Translations under genes and position numbers: made by a program
Notes under the pieces: model-generated
The model's database searches: none
What the model saw: the letters and a program-made list of their open reading frames with translations, nothing else
Told to the model about the DNA's origin: nothing
Source of the DNA: an uncultured Verrucomicrobiota bacterium
Lineage (GTDB): Bacteria; Verrucomicrobiota; Verrucomicrobiia; Chthoniobacterales; JACTMZ01
Length of the DNA stretch: 64,000 nt
Direction: 5' to 3'
Assembly (NCBI GenBank): GCA_903953565.1
Contig: CAJBKE010000004.1
Location: 140,594 to 204,593, forward strand
Shown here: positions 2-41,417 of the stretch, piece by piece
How the letters are laid out: every line of letters begins with the position of its first letter
How positions within the stretch are numbered: position 1 is the stretch's first letter

Positions 2-313
2 ATGGGCGGCAATGTCTGGAACTGGTGCAGCGATCTTTACCGCGCCGACACCTTCGCGGAGCGGGCAAACGACAAAGGTGCTTGCTGCGATCCGCGAGGT
101 CCCCTCACCGCAGAGGGAGAAACACCGATCCCGGGCGATCCTTCCCCTCCGAGCGTTCCCGGTGCCGAACGCCGCGTGACCAAGGGCGGCTCGTTTCTCT
201 GCAATCCCTCGTATTGCGAGAGCTACCGACCATCAGCCCGCCGCGGCACACCTCCCGACACCGGAAGCAGCCATGTCGGCTTCCGGTGTGCGATGGATGC
301 ACCTGCCCCCTGA
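2..313 (+). CDS. Formylglycine-generating enzyme (FGE/SUMF1)-family protein, C-terminal part (5' truncated by window edge)
   Basis: GGNVWNWCSD...RVTKGGSFLCNPSYCESYRPSARRGTPPDTGSSHVGFRCA matches the FGE-sulfatase C-terminal motif pattern. Confidence 0.85.
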   Translation: MGGNVWNWCSDLYRADTFAERANDKGACCDPRGPLTAEGETPIPGDPSPPSVPGAERRVTKGGSFLCNPSYCESYRPSARRGTPPDTGSSHVGFRCAMDAPAP

Positions 314-343
314 GCCTTGGCCGCGGGAATCCCGCGGGCCACG

Positions 344-1015
344 TCATCGCTGAGACTGCTCGAACCCTGTCTGCGCACCACGCAGAGCCGGACTCTCTAC
401 TTCGGTGCCCGCAGCACGTCGCAAGCCCTCCAGCAGCAGCTCGCGGATCCGGCGATCCTGTCCGCAGATCGCCTGCACCGCCTCGTGTGCGCGCGGGTTC
501 AGGCTGAAATCCGGGTAATCCTGCTGCACCGCACGCCAAGCAGCCGTGGCCTCGTGATCGATCCCGGACAACCCGAGGAGTGCCGCGCGGAGCACAAGCA
601 GGTTGCTGCGAGAGTGATCAGCATGCGGGAGACAGGCTTCATTGTAGTGGCTACTCACAATGTAGCGGCCTTTGGCAAACGACAAATGAATGGGATCCGT
701 TTTCCCGCATTTCAAATAGTAAGTCTCCAGATCGCGCCGCAGTTTCGCCGCTTCTATCCGGACGATCGGATCTTTCAGCGAGTCAAAACTGGCCGGACGT
801 CCAAAAACCTCCACCGCCACCTCGCGGGCCGAGGTCGTCCGTCCTTGCAGACTGTTCTCCACCACGCGCTGCAGGAACCTCCGGTTGCGATCCGAGGCGG
901 GAAAATCGGAACTTTGCACGATGTGACGAACTTGGGTCATAACCTCCGCGGCATCGGGAACGCGGGGAGGTGCCGGGGTGGCTGTGGGGACGGGGTGCGG
1001 GTTGATCGTTTGCAA
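344..1015 (-). CDS. Hypothetical protein with N-terminal winged-helix-like region of the adenylate-cyclase/TPR-associated type
   Basis: FLQRVVENSLQGRTTSAREVAVEVFGRPASFDSLKDPIVRIEAAKLRRDLETYY resembles the 'VFGRP.FD...DPIVRVEA.RLRR.LEEYY' module. Confidence 0.6.
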   Translation of the reverse strand: MQTINPHPVPTATPAPPRVPDAAEVMTQVRHIVQSSDFPASDRNRRFLQRVVENSLQGRTTSAREVAVEVFGRPASFDSLKDPIVRIEAAKLRRDLETYYLKCGKTDPIHLSFAKGRYIVSSHYNEACLPHADHSRSNLLVLRAALLGLSGIDHEATAAWRAVQQDYPDFSLNPRAHEAVQAICGQDRRIRELLLEGLRRAAGTEVESPALRGAQTGFEQSQR

Positions 1016-1117
1016 GGTTCGCAGTCTACCGTCCGACTGCCTCCCCCGCGCTATGCAGTTTCCGAAAAATCAACCACGCGCGACAAGCGGCGAAAATAGG
1101 ATTAGATGTATTGCCCC

Positions 1118-2119
1118 ATGGATTCGCTGACCCAGATCGCTTTGGGATCCTGCGTCGCCGCCGCGTGTGTCCCGGGACGGCAGCGCCGCAAAGCTGCCCT
1201 CCTCGGCGCTGCATTGGGGACTGTTCCCGATCTTGATGTCTTCGTCGATTACGGCGATCCCGTTGCGAATTTCACCATGCATCGCGGGTTCAGCCACTCG
1301 CTGCTCGTCCTCGCCCCTTTGGGGCTCGTTCTTTGGGGCGCACTAAAAGTGTGGTGGCCTCCGGTCCGCGAGGCGCCGCGCCAATGGTTGGCCGCCATTC
1401 TCCTCGCCCTGCTCACCCACCCGCTGCTCGACGCGCACACCGCCTATGGCACGCAGCTCTTGTGGCCATCCGGCCTGGCCCCGGTCTCATGGGCCACATT
1501 GTTCATCATCGATCCGCTTTACACCCTGCCGCTTTTGGCCGGAATGATCGCCGTTTTGATTCGGCCCGCCTCGCGCTGCGCCGGGCGTTGGTTGGTCGCG
1601 GGGCTTTTCCTCAGCACGCTCTATATGGGCTGGTCATGGACCGCAAAAACTTTGGTCGAAGCCCAAGCGCGGCAAGCACTCCAAGCGCGCGGACTCGCCG
1701 ATGCCCCGATGTTTATCACTCCAACACCTCTCAACACGCTGCTTTGGCGCGTCGTTGTTCGCACCGACGGAGGATATTACGAGGGACTCGACTCCGTGGT
1801 GGCCGATGACGGGGAGATCGAGTTTACCTTCCATCCTTCCGATGACGCCGCATTGACTGCAGCGGCTGATGTGCCCGCGCTCGCGCGATTGTCTTGGTTC
1901 GCCGATGGCTTTGTCAGCGGCACCATGGACAAGGACACGCTTGTCATTGCCGATCTTCGCATGGGACAGCACCCCGACTATGTCTTCCGCCATGCAGTGG
2001 CCCGACGCGGGAATCCTCATTGGCAAGAGGTCGAGCCGCAACGGATCGCGGCAAGGATGCGGACAAACCTTCTCGCGTCCCTTTGGCAGCGAATCTGGTC
2101 GGCCGAGCCGGATCTTTAG
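1118..2119 (+). CDS. YdjM/DUF457-type membrane-bound metal-dependent hydrolase
   Basis: MDSLTQIALGSCVAAA...PDLDVF...HRGFSHSLL plus several hydrophobic segments; ORF track start 1106, ATG at 1118 preferred. Confidence 0.75.
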   Translation: MDSLTQIALGSCVAAACVPGRQRRKAALLGAALGTVPDLDVFVDYGDPVANFTMHRGFSHSLLVLAPLGLVLWGALKVWWPPVREAPRQWLAAILLALLTHPLLDAHTAYGTQLLWPSGLAPVSWATLFIIDPLYTLPLLAGMIAVLIRPASRCAGRWLVAGLFLSTLYMGWSWTAKTLVEAQARQALQARGLADAPMFITPTPLNTLLWRVVVRTDGGYYEGLDSVVADDGEIEFTFHPSDDAALTAAADVPALARLSWFADGFVSGTMDKDTLVIADLRMGQHPDYVFRHAVARRGNPHWQEVEPQRIAARMRTNLLASLWQRIWSAEPDL

Positions 2120-2190
2120 AGGGGTTTACGAAAATCTGTGGTCGCTCGTCATTCCGGCAGCGTCCCTGCTTGCGAGGCCAAGTCCCGCTG

Positions 2191-2925
2191 CTACGGAACA
2201 GCTCGCCGATTGGCAGGTTGGACCTGCGGACTTGTATCCTGCGACTCCAACCTTTTCACCCTCTCCTTCGTCCCGCGCAACGCGTACCCCTGCGTCTCCA
2301 GTTTCTCCGCCATCGCTGCTGTGATCATCCGCGCCGTGCGCTTCTGGTCGGCGGTGACTCCGGTTTTGGCGAGAGACACGAGAGCGCGTATGCCTCCGCC
2401 GATCGGCGTCGGAAACGTGAGCATACCGGGCTCGGCATTCGATCCGCCGGTTGTTTCGATTTCCGCAATCATCCGCCGTGTGCCGCGTGCGCCTACAACC
2501 GAAACGGTGGTCCGCGCTTCCATTTTCGTGCCTCCGGCTCCGAGTCCGACCACGCTGCGCAGCAGACGGCTGCCTTGATTGAGCCGCAAGAAGCGGCCCT
2601 CCACGATCCACGCGCCTTTCGAGGGCCGCAGCCCTTTGGTCAGCGGCACGGCCGGCGCGATTCGTTCCGAGATCCGCTCACATAGCTCGTTGGTGAAATT
2701 TTTCAGGACGGTCTGGCGGAAGTCTTCAAGCTCCGGGCCGGCGCGATCCACATCGAGGGCATCTGCCGGCACCTCAAAGTCGGCAACATAGACCCGGGTC
2801 GGCATGGCGAGACGATCCTGGGACCATTTGTCTTCCTTCACGCTGACCGAGGCGCAGCCGGCCATAAGGAGACACCCTGCGGCTCCAGCCAGCACCGGAC
2901 CAACGCGGAGTGGGTGGACTTTCAT
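2191..2925 (-). CDS. DUF4410-like lipoprotein
   Basis: Lipobox LLMAGCASV; VYVADFEV...GAWIVEGRFLRLNQGSRLLRSVVGLGAGGTKMEARTTV resembles DUF4410. Confidence 0.6.
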   Translation of the reverse strand: MKVHPLRVGPVLAGAAGCLLMAGCASVSVKEDKWSQDRLAMPTRVYVADFEVPADALDVDRAGPELEDFRQTVLKNFTNELCERISERIAPAVPLTKGLRPSKGAWIVEGRFLRLNQGSRLLRSVVGLGAGGTKMEARTTVSVVGARGTRRMIAEIETTGGSNAEPGMLTFPTPIGGGIRALVSLAKTGVTADQKRTARMITAAMAEKLETQGYALRGTKERVKRLESQDTSPQVQPANRRAVP

Positions 2926-3036
2926 CCGCTCCAACTTAGTGCCGGCCTCCACATGCCGTAAGTCTAATCGTCTTGCTCCAACGAAGAAGGTGAATCGCGG
3001 TGGCCCTACCGCGGTCTCTCACAGGAGTCCGACAAC

Positions 3037-6840
<3,804 letters not shown>

Positions 6841-23918: not shown

Positions 23919-24020
23919 GGATGGCACTCTGTCTGCTGCACCGGACGGATAAGCGCAAGCTACTCGTGACCGTCCTTGACGCGTTCTCGCTTTCTCCCTC
24001 ATCTTCTCTCCCTCCACATC

Positions 24021-24050
24021 TCTCATCCCTCAACCTTCAGCTCTCAACTA
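24021..24050. repeat. TTGAGGG/TTGAGAG-family repeat end (solo)
   Basis: TCTCATCCCTCAACCTTCAGCTCTCAACTA just upstream of the peroxiredoxin ATG. Confidence 0.7.
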
Positions 24051-29472: not shown

Positions 29473-30219
29473 ATGACCCGCCACCACACCATCAACGCGG
29501 TCATCTCCGTCCTCCTCGGCGCCATTCTCCTCGCCGCCGCCTGCTTCGCTATCCTCCAAGCCATCAGCTGGAACTGGTCCGGCGTCTGGGCCTACCGGGA
29601 AGTCTTCTGGCGCGGCTGGCTCAACACCATCTGGATCTCCGCCGCCGCGCTCGTCCTCAGCGTCGTCCTCGGACTCCTTGCCGCCCTCGGACGCCGCGCG
29701 CCCTATCCCGCATTGCGCTGGCTCTCCACCGGCTACGTCGAACTCATCCGCGGAACCCCGCTGCTCGTCCAACTTCTCATCCTCTTCTACGTCGTCGCCG
29801 ATGCCGTGGGCCTGCAAAACCGCTACACCGCCGGCATTGGCATCCTCGCCACCTTCAGCGGCGCCTACATCGCCGAAATGATCCGCGCCGGCATCGAAAG
29901 CGTCGGCAAATCACAATTGGAATCCGCCCGCGCCATAGGACTCACCCGATGGCAAACCTACCGCCACGTCATCTTCCCTCAAGCCATCCGCCACATCGTG
30001 CCCCCGCTGGCCGGACAAGCCGCCTCCATTATCAAGGATAGCTCCCTGCTTTCCATCCTTGGCATCGAGGAATTCACCCTCGCCGCCCAACAAGTCAACT
30101 CCGCCACCTACAGCACATTGGAAAGCTATCTCCCCCTCGCCATCGGCTATCTTGCCTTGACCCTGCCGGTCTCCCTTCTGGCCCGCTACCTCGAGCACAA
30201 ATACCGGTATGAAACATAG
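29473..30219 (+). CDS. Amino-acid-type ABC transporter permease (HisM/GlnP family)
   Basis: GWLNTIWISAAALVLSVVLGLLAALGR...ELIRGTPLLVQLLILFY...IAEMIRAGIESVGKSQLESARAIGLTRWQTYRHVIFPQA. Confidence 0.92.
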   Translation: MTRHHTINAVISVLLGAILLAAACFAILQAISWNWSGVWAYREVFWRGWLNTIWISAAALVLSVVLGLLAALGRRAPYPALRWLSTGYVELIRGTPLLVQLLILFYVVADAVGLQNRYTAGIGILATFSGAYIAEMIRAGIESVGKSQLESARAIGLTRWQTYRHVIFPQAIRHIVPPLAGQAASIIKDSSLLSILGIEEFTLAAQQVNSATYSTLESYLPLAIGYLALTLPVSLLARYLEHKYRYET

Positions 30220-30220
30220 G

Positions 30221-30390
30221 GAGTTGAGGGTTGAGAGATGAGCGTTGAGAGACATCCAAAACCGCTGGAGGGCGGCCGTCCCCGGCCGCCGCAAAGCACC
30301 GAGGCAAGCGCACCCCGCAGTTCGCGAGGACGCTCGCCCTCCAATCAATCTCCTCCCTCCCTCAACCCTAAACCCTCAACTCTCAACTAG
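30221..30390. repeat. Inverted-repeat-bounded element (TTGAGGG family) with internal hairpin unit
   Basis: GAGTTGAGGGTTGAGAGATGAGCGTTGAGAGA (30221-30252) and CTCAACCCTAAACCCTCAACTCTCAACTAG (30361-30390) flank GGAGGGCG...CGCCCTCC (30267-30342). Confidence 0.75.
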
Positions 30391-30392
30391 AA

Positions 30393-31124
30393 ATGCTCCT
30401 GCATTTCCACCACCTCACCAAACGCTACGGCGACAACACCGTGATCGACGACATCACGGCCACGCTCGATTTCCCCCACGTTCTCGCTTTGCTCGGACCC
30501 TCCGGCGGCGGCAAGTCCACCCTTCTGCGCCTCGTTGGCGGATTGGAGTCTCCCGAGCGAGGTTCCCTCACTGTCGATCACGAACCCGTTCCGACCTCCG
30601 ACAAATCTCTCCGCACCTACCGCAGCAACATCGGAACCGTCTTCCAATCCTGGAACCTATTTCCCCATCTCGACGCCCTCGCCAACATCATGCTCCCCCT
30701 CACCGCCGTGCACGGACTGGCCCCCGACCAAGCCCGCGCTCGCGCCGAAGAACTTCTCGAGCGCTTGCATCTCAACGGTCACGGCCAAAAGCGCCCGGCG
30801 GAACTCTCCGGCGGACAGCGCCAACGCGTCGCCATCGCGCGCGCCGTGGCTATCCGGCCCAAGTTGCTTCTCTTCGATGAGCCCACCTCCGCCCTCGATC
30901 CCGAAATGACCGCCGAAGTGTTGGAAGTCATCGCCGACCTCAAATCCGAAGGCCGCACTTTTATTCTCGTGACACACGCCATGAACTTCGCCCGCACCGT
31001 AGCCGACCAAGTCGCCTTCCTGGCCAACGGCCAGATCCTCGAACAAGCGCCCGCAAAAGAATTCTTCTCCGCCCCCACAACCGAAACCGCCCAACGCTTC
31101 CTCGCGAAAGTCCTCAAGTATTAA
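30393..31124 (+). CDS. Amino-acid-type ABC transporter ATP-binding protein (GlnQ family)
   Basis: Walker A GPSGGGKST, LSGGQRQRVAIARA, LLLFDEPTSALDPEM. Confidence 0.93.
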   Translation: MLLHFHHLTKRYGDNTVIDDITATLDFPHVLALLGPSGGGKSTLLRLVGGLESPERGSLTVDHEPVPTSDKSLRTYRSNIGTVFQSWNLFPHLDALANIMLPLTAVHGLAPDQARARAEELLERLHLNGHGQKRPAELSGGQRQRVAIARAVAIRPKLLLFDEPTSALDPEMTAEVLEVIADLKSEGRTFILVTHAMNFARTVADQVAFLANGQILEQAPAKEFFSAPTTETAQRFLAKVLKY

Positions 31125-31166
31125 GCCAAACGAAAAGTCGCGCCGAGACGGCGCCATCCACCTGAT

Positions 31167-31190
31167 GTAGCGGCGGTCAGTGACCGTCGG
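31167..31190 (+). repeat. Dispersed repeat GTAGCGGCGGTCAGTGACCGTCGG
   Basis: 24 nt, 2 mismatches to 29437-29460. Confidence 0.75.
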
Positions 31191-31247
31191 AACCCTCACT
31201 CAGGTTTCCCCTCCTCTGCGCTCTCTGCGTCCTCAGTGGTCAAACAA

Positions 31248-32006
31248 TTACGCCGTTGCCTCAACCGCATTACGCACGCTGGCTAGCGCGTAATCCCTAT
31301 TCATCTTGGCAATAAACGCCGCCGGCACCCCAGCCGGACAAACCGCCTCGCATTCATAGTAGTTGGAACAATTGCCGAACCCTTCCTTGTCCATTTGCGC
31401 GACCATACCGCGCACGCGCCGCCCGGCCTCCGCCTTACCCTGTGGCAACAGACCCAAATGCCCCACCTTGGCTGCAACGAAGAGCATGGCCGATCCGTTC
31501 GGACAGGCCGCCGCGCACGCCCCGCAGCCGATGCAGGCCGCCGCATCCATGGCATAGTCCGCAACCGTCTTGGGAATCGGCGTGTCGTTGGCATCCTGGG
31601 CGTTGCCGCAGCGCTCGCTGATGAAACCGCCCGCGGCAATGACGCGATCGTAAGCCGAACGGTTAACGACCAAGTCCTTGACCACCGGAAAGGCGCCGAC
31701 GCGGAACGGTTCGATGTAGATCGTGTCCCCGTCGCTGAACTTCCGCATATAAAGCTGGCAGGCCGTCCCACGTCCGGGGCCCTGCGGGATCCCGTTGATC
31801 GTCATACTGCACGCACCGCAAATGCCCTCGCGGCAATCATGATCGAAAGCCACCGGCTCCTCACCTTTTTCGGTCAGCCGGTCGTTGACGATGTCGAGCA
31901 TCTCCAGAAACGAAGCCTCGGAAGGAATGTCGCGCGCCGCCACTTCCTGAAATTTTCCCTGACCGCTCCCTTCCTCCTGCCGCCAAATCTTGAGGTTGAA
32001 GTTCAT
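31248..32006 (-). CDS. sdhB: Succinate dehydrogenase/fumarate reductase iron-sulfur subunit
   Basis: [67 protein letters not shown]. Confidence 0.93.
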
Positions 32007-32011
32007 GAAAT

Positions 32012-32460
32012 AGTTGAGAGGTGAGGGTTGAGGGTTGAGGGATTAGCTACGTAGATGGTTACGCAGGCCGCTGAGCATGCGGATGAGTGCCTCCGAGTCA
32101 GAGTAAAGTTTTTGAAATACTTGTTCGTCGAGAAAACCTTGCTTTTGAGCAATGAAACCTTGGCTGACCAGCTCGTAGAGCGAGCCGACGGCCAGCTCGA
32201 CGAATCGGGCAAAGTCCTGACGTGAGGAACGCGAACTTCCCTCGGCGATGTTGGAAGAGACCGACACAACCGCACGCCGCATCTGGCTCGTGATGCCGAA
32301 TCTTTCATCGGACGGAAACTTTCCCGTAACGTCGTAGATGAACGCAGCGAGATCAACCGCTCGCTGCCAGACATCGAGCTTTTCAAAGTTGAAGCCTCTT
32401 TTTGTTTCATCCGGCATCTCTGGATCCTGTGTCTCTCAACTCTCATCCCTCAACCCTCAG
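32012..32460 (-). mobile_element. Candidate TTGAGGG-family element carrying the S23 four-helix-bundle gene
   Basis: 32012-32042 AGTTGAGAGGTGAGGGTTGAGGGTTGAGGGA and 32432-32460 TCTCTCAACTCTCATCCCTCAACCCTCAG are inverted and flank ORF 32043-32417 between sdhA and sdhB. Confidence 0.55.
32043..32417 (-). CDS. Four-helix-bundle protein (S23 / 23S rRNA intervening-sequence protein family)
   Basis: FEKLDVWQRAVDLAAFIYDVTGKFPSDERFGITSQMRRAVVSVSSNIAEGSSRSSRQDFARFVELAVGSLYELVSQ is a typical S23-family sequence. Confidence 0.93.
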   Translation of the reverse strand: MPDETKRGFNFEKLDVWQRAVDLAAFIYDVTGKFPSDERFGITSQMRRAVVSVSSNIAEGSSRSSRQDFARFVELAVGSLYELVSQGFIAQKQGFLDEQVFQKLYSDSEALIRMLSGLRNHLRS

Positions 32461-34382
<1,922 letters not shown>

Positions 34383-34386
<4 letters not shown>

Positions 34387-35150
34387 GATTGCGCGGAAGC
34401 TGTGAGTTCAGGCGCAACCCGACGGTCATCCGGAAGCACCTTCAAAAAACCCGCCACCGAGGCGACGGGAATCGAGGCAAAGCCGAGCATCAACGCCCAA
34501 GAAACGAGCAACGCCCCGTGCTTGATCAGCTTGGCCGATTTGCGTCCGTTCAGGCCGAAGGTCTGGAACACGCTGGAAATACCGTGGCTCAGGTGCATCC
34601 CAAGCAGCACGAGGCTGAGCAGATAAAATCCGGAGACCAGCGGGTTGTGGAAACTCAGGATGATCATCGCGGCCACATCATGCCGTCCCTCGAGGTCATA
34701 AAGATGCGAGTGCGGGCTCATCCCCGCCGCGAATTGCAGCACATGGAAAATGAGAAACGAAAGAACGACCAGCCCGCTCAACGCCATGGTCCGGGCAAAA
34801 ATCGTGCTCTGCACCCGCGCCTTGACCGCATAGCGCTGCGGCCGCGCGCGCCGGTTCTCGAGGACAAGCGACAACGTGGTGAAAATGTGCACGAGAAAAA
34901 CAACCAGCAATCCGCCCCGCGCCCCCCAAAGAAGAATCGGACTGGCGTGCAGCGCCTGCGCATACACATTGATGCCCTCACCGTAAGGCCCGACGTAGAT
35001 CGTCAAGTTGCCCGCCAGATGGGCGAGGACAAACAAGACCAGTAGCCCGCCCGATATCCCCACGATCCACTTGCGCCCGATCGATGACTTGGCAAAAGCG
35101 CAGAGTGGATTTTGCTGGCGGGGACCCTGGTAGACCGAGGCGACAGACAT
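34383..35150 (-). CDS. sdhC: Succinate dehydrogenase/fumarate reductase cytochrome b subunit
   Basis: [33 protein letters not shown], 5 TM helices; overlaps sdhA start. Confidence 0.88.
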
Positions 35151-35268
35151 GATTGCGTAGACTATTAGATTGCCTAATAGTTGCAACGCTTAAGATCGGC
35201 CTCCGGATGCGTTTACTGCGTCGGGAGCACTTGCACTGACCGCGGAGCCGCTATACCGGTCAGGCCTG

Positions 35269-40512: not shown

Positions 40513-41397
40513 TCAACGATCACCCGCCGGCTGCAGCAGACGACGCATTGTTTCGATCGACACGCAATCGCGGAATACCATTTGTACATCCTCCGCCGCG
40601 GGTTCTTCGCCTTCCTCCGTATCGGCCAAGAGCGCCGCCGTGGTGGAAACAGTGCCGACCACCTTACCCGCCGCATTGAGCACAGGAGCGCCCGAGCTGC
40701 CCGCTCCATAATCCGCTGTCACCGTGACCCAAGTGCGCCGCACCTTGTCCTCGCCGCCCGATTCGGAAAACACCCGCGATACAATCCCCTCGCTCAGCGT
40801 GTAGAAACGTCCGTCCGGATGACCAATCACCCGCACCGCTTCCCCGGTGCGCACTCCATCCGCCAAAGACAAAGCGGACAACTCCGCATCACCCGGATCG
40901 ATTTCCAAAATGGCCGCGTCCCCATCGCGATCCGAGGCCAGCACGCGACGCACGGCGAATACCCGCCCATCAAAAGTCATCACGCCGAGCTCACCCGCCT
41001 TCTTGTCCTCGAGCACATGGTGGTTCGTCACAATGCGTCCGCGCGGATCGATCACCCACCCCGTGCTGACCGCACCCATGTGCGTTGTCTTGCAGTCCGC
41101 GCAATATTCCGCCGAACCGACAATGACCACCGCCCGGCATGCCTGCTCGTAATCCGAAGCCGCTTCTCCTGACCCTTCATCAACCTCGACGATCTTCCCC
41201 TGCGCTGCGGCCAGAGCCTCGATAGCCTCCGCGCCACTGATTCCGTCCACGCCCGCCTGCTGCAAGCCCTCGGTGAACTTCGCCTCCAAGGCCGCATCAT
41301 CGATCACCGGCGCCGCCTGCGCCGCGGCAAGAGAAAGCAGCAAACAAAACAAACCACCACGGACTCCACGTGCTCGCCTCTTTCTCTCAACCCTCAT
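40513..41397 (-). CDS. Trypsin-like (S1C-type) serine protease
   Basis: GWVIDPRGRIVTNHHVLE...DAAILEID...GYGAGSSGAPVLNAAGKVVG-like triad context (TADYGAGSSGAPVLNAAGKVVGTVS). Confidence 0.85.
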   Translation of the reverse strand: MRVERKRRARGVRGGLFCLLLSLAAAQAAPVIDDAALEAKFTEGLQQAGVDGISGAEAIEALAAAQGKIVEVDEGSGEAASDYEQACRAVVIVGSAEYCADCKTTHMGAVSTGWVIDPRGRIVTNHHVLEDKKAGELGVMTFDGRVFAVRRVLASDRDGDAAILEIDPGDAELSALSLADGVRTGEAVRVIGHPDGRFYTLSEGIVSRVFSESGGEDKVRRTWVTVTADYGAGSSGAPVLNAAGKVVGTVSTTAALLADTEEGEEPAAEDVQMVFRDCVSIETMRRLLQPAGDR

Positions 41398-41417
41398 CAC
41401 TCAACCCTCAACTCCCC
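41382..41417. repeat. TTGAGGG-family repeat end (solo)
   Basis: TCTCTCAACCCTCATCACTCAACCCTCAACTCCCCT between PDZ-gene stop and protease start. Confidence 0.7.

Follow-up and report, generated by a model that had tools for sequence, protein, structure and literature searches.

A probable intervening-sequence-type S23 element with inverted heptad arms at the sdhA-sdhB junction of a Verrucomicrobiota bacterium

S23 (23S_rRNA_IVP) genes were previously noted in rRNA insertions (PMC11270868) and in cas operons (PMC3936711), and the homology between S23 and Avd of diversity-generating retroelements was also noted (PMC10053308). The intervening sequence (IVS) in the 23S rRNA of Coxiella burnetii has a length of 428 nt, a 28-bp terminal stem and tandem GACAGAT heptamers upstream of its S23 ORF; it is excised by RNase III, and the solved S23 homologue was described as a homopentamer (PMC4990558). 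Heptameric repeats are also found in intergenic regions: GGGAATC in Xanthomonas, GGGGA(T/C)T in Nostoc (PMC4692102), and TAACTGA in Beggiatoaceae, for which translational regulation was proposed (PMC4679880). The Xanthomonas heptads are mostly organized in four units, often in inverted pairs, with 70-75 per genome, and some bacteria show a general excess of heptameric repeats (PMC4692102). Neither of these two repeat papers mentions S23 or IVS, and a search of openly accessible literature returned no paper that connects S23 genes with heptameric intergenic repeats. The STRR repeats of cyanobacteria are further heptameric intergenic repeats.

We analysed a 64,000-nt stretch of DNA, referred to here as the window, from an uncultured Verrucomicrobiota bacterium. 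Its succinate dehydrogenase operon lies on the minus strand in the order sdhC, sdhA, insert, sdhB, and comprises the genes for the cytochrome b subunit (sdhC, 34383-35186; TIGR02046, 4e-48), the flavoprotein (sdhA, 32461-34386; TIGR01811, 2.5e-287) and the iron-sulfur subunit (sdhB, 31248-32006; NF005746, 3.2e-117). The initial annotation of this DNA had described an S23 gene between inverted TTGAGGG/TTGAGAG-type arrays inside the sdhA-sdhB operon, and this description was confirmed, the arms being inverted repeats of four heptads each. The insert is 454 bp long; its first base directly follows the sdhA stop codon and its last base directly precedes the sdhB ATG. It contains, in order, a 28-bp arm of four heptads, the S23 gene, and another such arm in inverted orientation. 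Read along the minus strand, the stop codon TAG of sdhA (32461) is immediately followed by CTGAGGGTTGAGGGATGAGAGTTGAGAG (32460-32433), the S23 ORF (32417-32043, 124 aa), TCCCTCAACCCTCAACCCTCACCTCTCAACTATTTC, and the ATG of sdhB at 32006. The left (5') arm, 32433-32460, reads CTGAGGG, TTGAGGG, ATGAGAG, TTGAGAG and abuts the sdhA stop codon. The right (3') arm, 32014-32041, is pyrimidine-rich on the sense strand (CCCTCAA, CCCTCAA, CCCTCAC, CTCTCAA; on the other strand TTGAGAG, GTGAGGG, TTGAGGG, TTGAGGG) and ends 7 bp before the sdhB ATG. In the predicted minimum-energy fold of the junction RNA the two arms pair and S23 is placed in the loop (z = -2.78).

The encoded four-helix-bundle protein (32043-32417, minus strand) belongs to the S23 family by a PF05635 score of 122.8 bits (8.7e-36; family cut-off 33.8 bits) and a TIGR02436 match (9.3e-34). 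Its sequence, FGITSQMRRAVVSVSSNIAEG, has the same GxxRxxxSxxxNxxE-type motif as in PMC3936711, and its solved homologue is the Xanthomonas protein XCC0516 (2GSC, 1.2e-22). The dN/dS values for S23 are mostly 0.05-0.2 (0.05-0.11 at the sdhA-sdhB junction in the genus and 0.01-0.20 at the metK-ahcY junction); this purifying selection indicates that the protein is produced and is of importance for the element or for the host. No match to S23 was found among the defence-system families of PADLOC or in phage records.

The initial annotation had mentioned rRNA IVSs as background only; in fact, the architecture of the sdh insert closely matches them. As in the 23S rRNA IVSs of Coxiella burnetii and Leptospira, the S23 gene occupies the loop above a stem of terminal inverted repeats, the stem is about 28 bp long, heptameric repeats are found in the stem or the 5' region, the size is about 430-480 bp, and the distribution is patchy, with forms that have and lack the ORF. 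A direct representative of this group was identified on plasmid AZO_p2 of Azospirillum lipoferum 4B (locus L220), where the Rfam match to bacterial LSU rRNA (286-3348 of the locus) spans an S23 insert at 1501-1848. This insert is a genuine 23S rRNA IVS of the same plan, and its arms consist of TCAGAGGACGGATGACAGAGGACGGAGGACAG and its inverse, again heptads. The differences concern the heptad and the location: the sdh insert, although it encodes S23/IVP and has inverted repeats at its ends that can pair into a stem enclosing the ORF, is not in an rRNA gene but in a protein operon, between the stop codon of sdhA and the start codon of sdhB, and is therefore of IVS type rather than a strict-sense IVS. 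In addition, S23 of Coxiella is regarded as a decaying gene without translation, whereas S23 of this genus is under purifying selection. Taken together, the insert is probably an IVS-type S23 element, placed where one gene of a protein operon stops and the next starts.

Three other known systems share some features with the insert. Its arms have in common with the repeats of Xanthomonas, Nostoc and Beggiatoaceae the heptad unit, the intergenic location and the restriction to particular lineages, and with those of Xanthomonas also the predominance of four units and the frequent inverted pairing. Avd is a homologous four-helix bundle that gives weak profile matches to S23 (NF033474, phrog_3206); however, the insert lacks the reverse transcriptase, template and variable repeat of diversity-generating retroelements, the NF033474 score is 21 bits against a cut-off of 80, and no reverse transcriptase (RVT_1) was found in the genome. 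The REP/BIME palindromes tagged with GTAG (PMC3733652) are short intergenic palindromes, similar to the REP-like ones (GTAGCGGCGGTC...GACCG(C/T)CGG) that we observed at 31140-31210 of the window, downstream of sdhB, and inside arm pairs of two related genomes, G004 and G006 (loops L194 and L196). The heptad arms differ from them in sequence and structure, the REP/BIME units have no heptads, and no RAYT-type Y1 transposase was found in this genome.

The inverted heptad arms proved to be a general feature of S23 genes. In total, 80 S23 loci from named genomes were surveyed, 79 of them scorable, in a sample that leans to Verrucomicrobiota and Bacteroidota; a locus was counted as armed if the best inverted match between its two flanks reached a score of 12, and all locus types were scored identically. 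Arms were present at 81% of the 79 S23 loci, compared to 6.4% of 266 other ORFs that these loci contain and to 1.6% of random windows (Mann-Whitney P = 3e-34). The armed fraction was 95% in the Verrucomicrobiota-type loci, 74% in Bacteroidota and 57% in other phyla; thus, clear arms are missing at about one S23 locus in five, and at 43% in the small sample of other phyla. Self-similarity of the arms peaks only at lags 7 (0.56) and 14 (0.55), with 0.26-0.33 at other lags; the median aligned arm is 38 nt long and arms typically contain four to five heptads. Heptad sequences vary between lineages: TTGAGAG, TTGATAG and TTGAAAG in Verrucomicrobiota, CAAGANN in Cyclobacteriaceae, and TAGGGAG, GGTGACA and AAAAGCT on cyanobacterial plasmids. 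Nevertheless, the two arms of one element are matched, as own arm pairs score 24.1 versus 18.1 for permuted pairs in Verrucomicrobiota (p < 2e-4) and 25.7 versus 17.6 at the orthologous livK-livH junction (p = 3e-4). The arms also have a polarity: in the S23 sense, purine content of the 5' arm exceeds 60% in 64 of 94 cases and is below 40% in one. Co-orientation of S23 with the neighbouring genes is only modest (48/75 versus 119/229 for control ORFs). Among mismatches within arm pairs, G.U-compatible ones are not in excess of A.C-type ones (188 versus 173, p = 0.46). This lack of a wobble bias means that the arms do not demonstrate selection on an RNA stem, and a role at the DNA level is equally plausible.

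Operon junctions that hold S23 include sdhA-sdhB, livK-livH, metK-ahcY, cas6-cas4 and cas10-cmr3. In plasmid records, S23 is located between cas6 and cas4, between cas10 and cmr3, and, in antisense orientation, between nrdB and nrdA; in the CRISPR operons of cyanobacterial plasmids (L210, L217, L218), repeats were seen on the flanks of the inserts at cas6-cas4 and cas10-cmr3. In Flavobacterium columnare (PMC5524665), a four-helix-bundle gene, an S23 at an operon junction, lies between the genes for guanylate kinase and nicotinate-nucleotide adenylyltransferase in both genomovars.

The genome under study contains seven S23 genes. The initial annotation had suggested a check of whether other S23 genes have TTGAGGG flanks as well; the other six have different heptads or none that are clear, and most of them are armed, with heptads of the AGGCTAG, AGGCGAT, TGGAGCA and AGATGGA types. 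A glycosyltransferase-rich, polysaccharide-type operon beyond the window (G000:C33:84000-119000; L259, L260) has four S23 genes and many heptad tracts at its junctions, of the types AGGCNNN, GTGACNA and GGTCAGA; the AGGC heptads have 23 matches in the genome, 21 of them on one strand and none outside this region.

Conversely, TTGAG arrays are not confined to S23 genes. The heptad pattern has 69 matches in the genome versus 13 for the reversed control, and the three-heptad pattern TTGAGNNNTGAGNNNTGAG has 38 versus none. The arrays are not loose microsatellites, a candidate that was rejected, but a fixed intergenic 28-mer with unit-specific bases, whose consensus heptads are TTGAGGG, TTGAGGG, ATGAGNG and TTGAGAG and which is nearly always preceded by AG. 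About five array sites in the genome are inverted pairs, and the remainder are single. One S23-less relative is found in the window (30220-30392, plus strand, 173 bp), where it separates the gene for an ABC permease (29473-30219) from that for its ATPase (30393-31124). Between its arms, 30224-30251 and 30359-30386, there is a GC-rich palindrome but no gene, and its predicted fold has z = -5.56. Solo arrays are located on the minus strand at 24020-24047 (degenerate, directly before an ATG) and at 41384-41411 (TTGAGGGTTGAGTGATGAGGGTTGAGAG). Most TTGAGGG arrays in the genome are without S23. Similarly, the related genome G008 has no TTGAG-armed S23 and yet 35 TTGAG array matches, so that an array does not strictly require a cognate S23 in the same genome. 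In Bacteroidota, CAAGANN is dispersed in four genomes with CAAGANN-armed S23 genes (321, 74, 100 and 5 matches versus 7, 1, 0 and 0 for the control). An exclusive association of TTGAGGG with S23 is ruled out by the S23-less arm pairs and by the S23 genes with different heptads; what recurs in general is an S23 gene with matched arms of one heptad or another, rather than TTGAGGG with a cargo.

The history of single junctions was followed in draft assemblies of the genus, with G000 denoting the genome under study. The sdhA-sdhB junction carries S23 in G000, G003, G009 and G010, is a gap of 2 bp in G002, 7 bp in G008 and 8 bp in G001, and has a 180-bp REP-type insert in G006. The annotation had read the junction as an insertion to be checked by empty sites in close relatives; such sites of 2-8 bp within the genus, together with the sharp boundaries of the insert at the stop codon of sdhA and the start codon of sdhB, bear this out, and S23 is not present in all relatives. 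In the sdhB tree, however, the empty pair G001 and G002 groups with G010 (100/100), within the S23-bearing genomes, and the sdhA-sdhB S23 copies of the genus form one clade. This nesting rules out a recent insertion at the junction; the simplest reading is a single old insertion with clean later losses. The G010 copy (L061/L088) has an in-frame TGA and is possibly decaying. The ABC permease-ATPase junction has S23-less arm pairs with differing loops in G000, G006 and G004, and is empty in G001, G002 and G007 (0, 0 and 13 bp).

Exchange is seen at the metK-ahcY junction (loci L169-L172, L262, L264, L281, L290 and L291), which is empty in G000, G003 and G006, holds a cassette A in G001, G002, G004 and G008, and a cassette B in G005 and G010. 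Protein identity between the two S23 versions is no more than 53-56%, and A and B also have different arms, which are matched within each cassette. Between G002 and G005, the DNA identity is 96.5% for metK and 95.2% for ahcY and only 63.3% for the cassette, while between G005 and G010 the cassettes are 97.1% identical and the flanks 90.7% and 93.7%. Since the identity of the cassette is decoupled from that of its flanks, S23 and its arms were exchanged together and independently of the host genes. A remnant of the A-type S23 is present in G007, and S23 also occurs at this junction in G026, from another family. The ahcY gene beside metK is about 65% identical at the DNA level between G004/G008 and G002/G005/G010, compared to 75-90% for metK, which suggests that ahcY itself may have been replaced beside the cassette. 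The S23 gene of L116, located at a different site, nests in an sdhA-sdhB clade and shares the arms of that clade; S23 genes otherwise group by junction in the tree, so that jumps appear to be rare. Thus, of the initially proposed mobile element that lands between operon genes, insertion and exchange elsewhere are upheld, whereas at sdhA-sdhB the element is ancestral in the genus rather than newly arrived.

Of the alternative explanations, the one that survives best, and which we nevertheless consider unlikely, is a host regulatory module that is kept because it is useful and not because it is mobile. Here, the heptad hairpins would be operon-internal RNA signals for processing, stability or downstream translational coupling, and S23 would be a host RNA-binding reader. 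The strong purifying selection on S23, its repeated placement at the five operon junctions named above, the long conservation at one junction and the translational regulation proposed earlier for the TAACTGA heptads (PMC4679880) are all consistent with such a module. It is harder to reconcile with the clean absence of the cassette from close relatives that have an intact operon, with the substitution of an unrelated cassette for it inside a single genus, with S23 genes that are antisense to both neighbours, and with arms that have no wobble signature of RNA selection.

Less probable still is a non-autonomous transposon or MITE, in which the arms would be terminal inverted repeats mobilized by a conventional transposase acting in trans, with S23 as a passenger. 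The inverted ends, the sharp borders, the occurrence of solo ends and the varying content of the loops would fit this explanation, but between lineages the arms share only the 7-bp period and mutual complementarity, with none of the conserved sequence of transposase-recognised ends, and S23 is the only gene that recurs inside them. Moreover, no target-site duplication is evident at the sdhA-sdhB or metK-ahcY borders, and the genome was found to have neither a Y1 transposase nor a reverse transcriptase, both of which were rejected as resident movers. A passive origin, in which replication slippage left heptad microsatellites in intergenic gaps and S23 is adjacent by chance, is very improbable: S23-free tracts do exist and heptameric repeats are over-represented in some bacteria (PMC4692102), but the arms are more than ten times as frequent at S23 genes as at ORFs in the same loci, and they are inverted, matched within the element and of fixed polarity (purine-rich 5' of S23 in 64/94, the reverse in one).

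We favour the IVS-type S23 element. Evidence that weighs against it comprises the lack of a G.U bias in the mismatches, the rarity of jumps, the TTGAG arrays in genomes that have no cognate S23, the S23 genes with no clear arms and the internal stop of the G010 copy; in addition, neither a target duplication nor a catalytic activity was identified. The following scenario can be proposed for the element. The element would persist by doing little harm, as it sits between a stop and a start codon and its arms could pair so that the S23 loop is folded away from the rest of the operon mRNA; RNase III might, as in rRNA IVSs, remove it or cleave the mRNA at this point. S23 would be the element's own factor that recognises the heptad arms, and the homopentameric homologue together with arms of four to five heptads makes one heptad per subunit an attractive speculation. 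The solo arrays and S23-less hairpins would be relics or non-autonomous derivatives. The DNA step of the movement would be performed by host enzymes, because the element carries neither a transposase nor a reverse transcriptase. More tentatively, and with distinctly less confidence than for the sdh insert itself, S23 and its matched inverted heptad arms may constitute one bacteria-wide class of minimal mobile elements without transposase, recombinase or reverse transcriptase, in which an S23 pentamer acts on the heptad stem. This class would then have given rise to rRNA IVSs, to the orphan S23 genes found in the cas, liv, sdh and metK operons, and at least in part to the heptameric repeats known from cyanobacteria, Xanthomonas and Beggiatoa.

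S23/IVP is a widely annotated family without a known function, and the heptameric repeats of intergenic regions have long been puzzling. The pairing of S23 with heptads, following one plan in rRNA and in protein operons, would offer a common and testable explanation for both. The rRNA IVSs would then be one habitat of a broader element that inhabits operon junctions, where it is exchanged as a whole.
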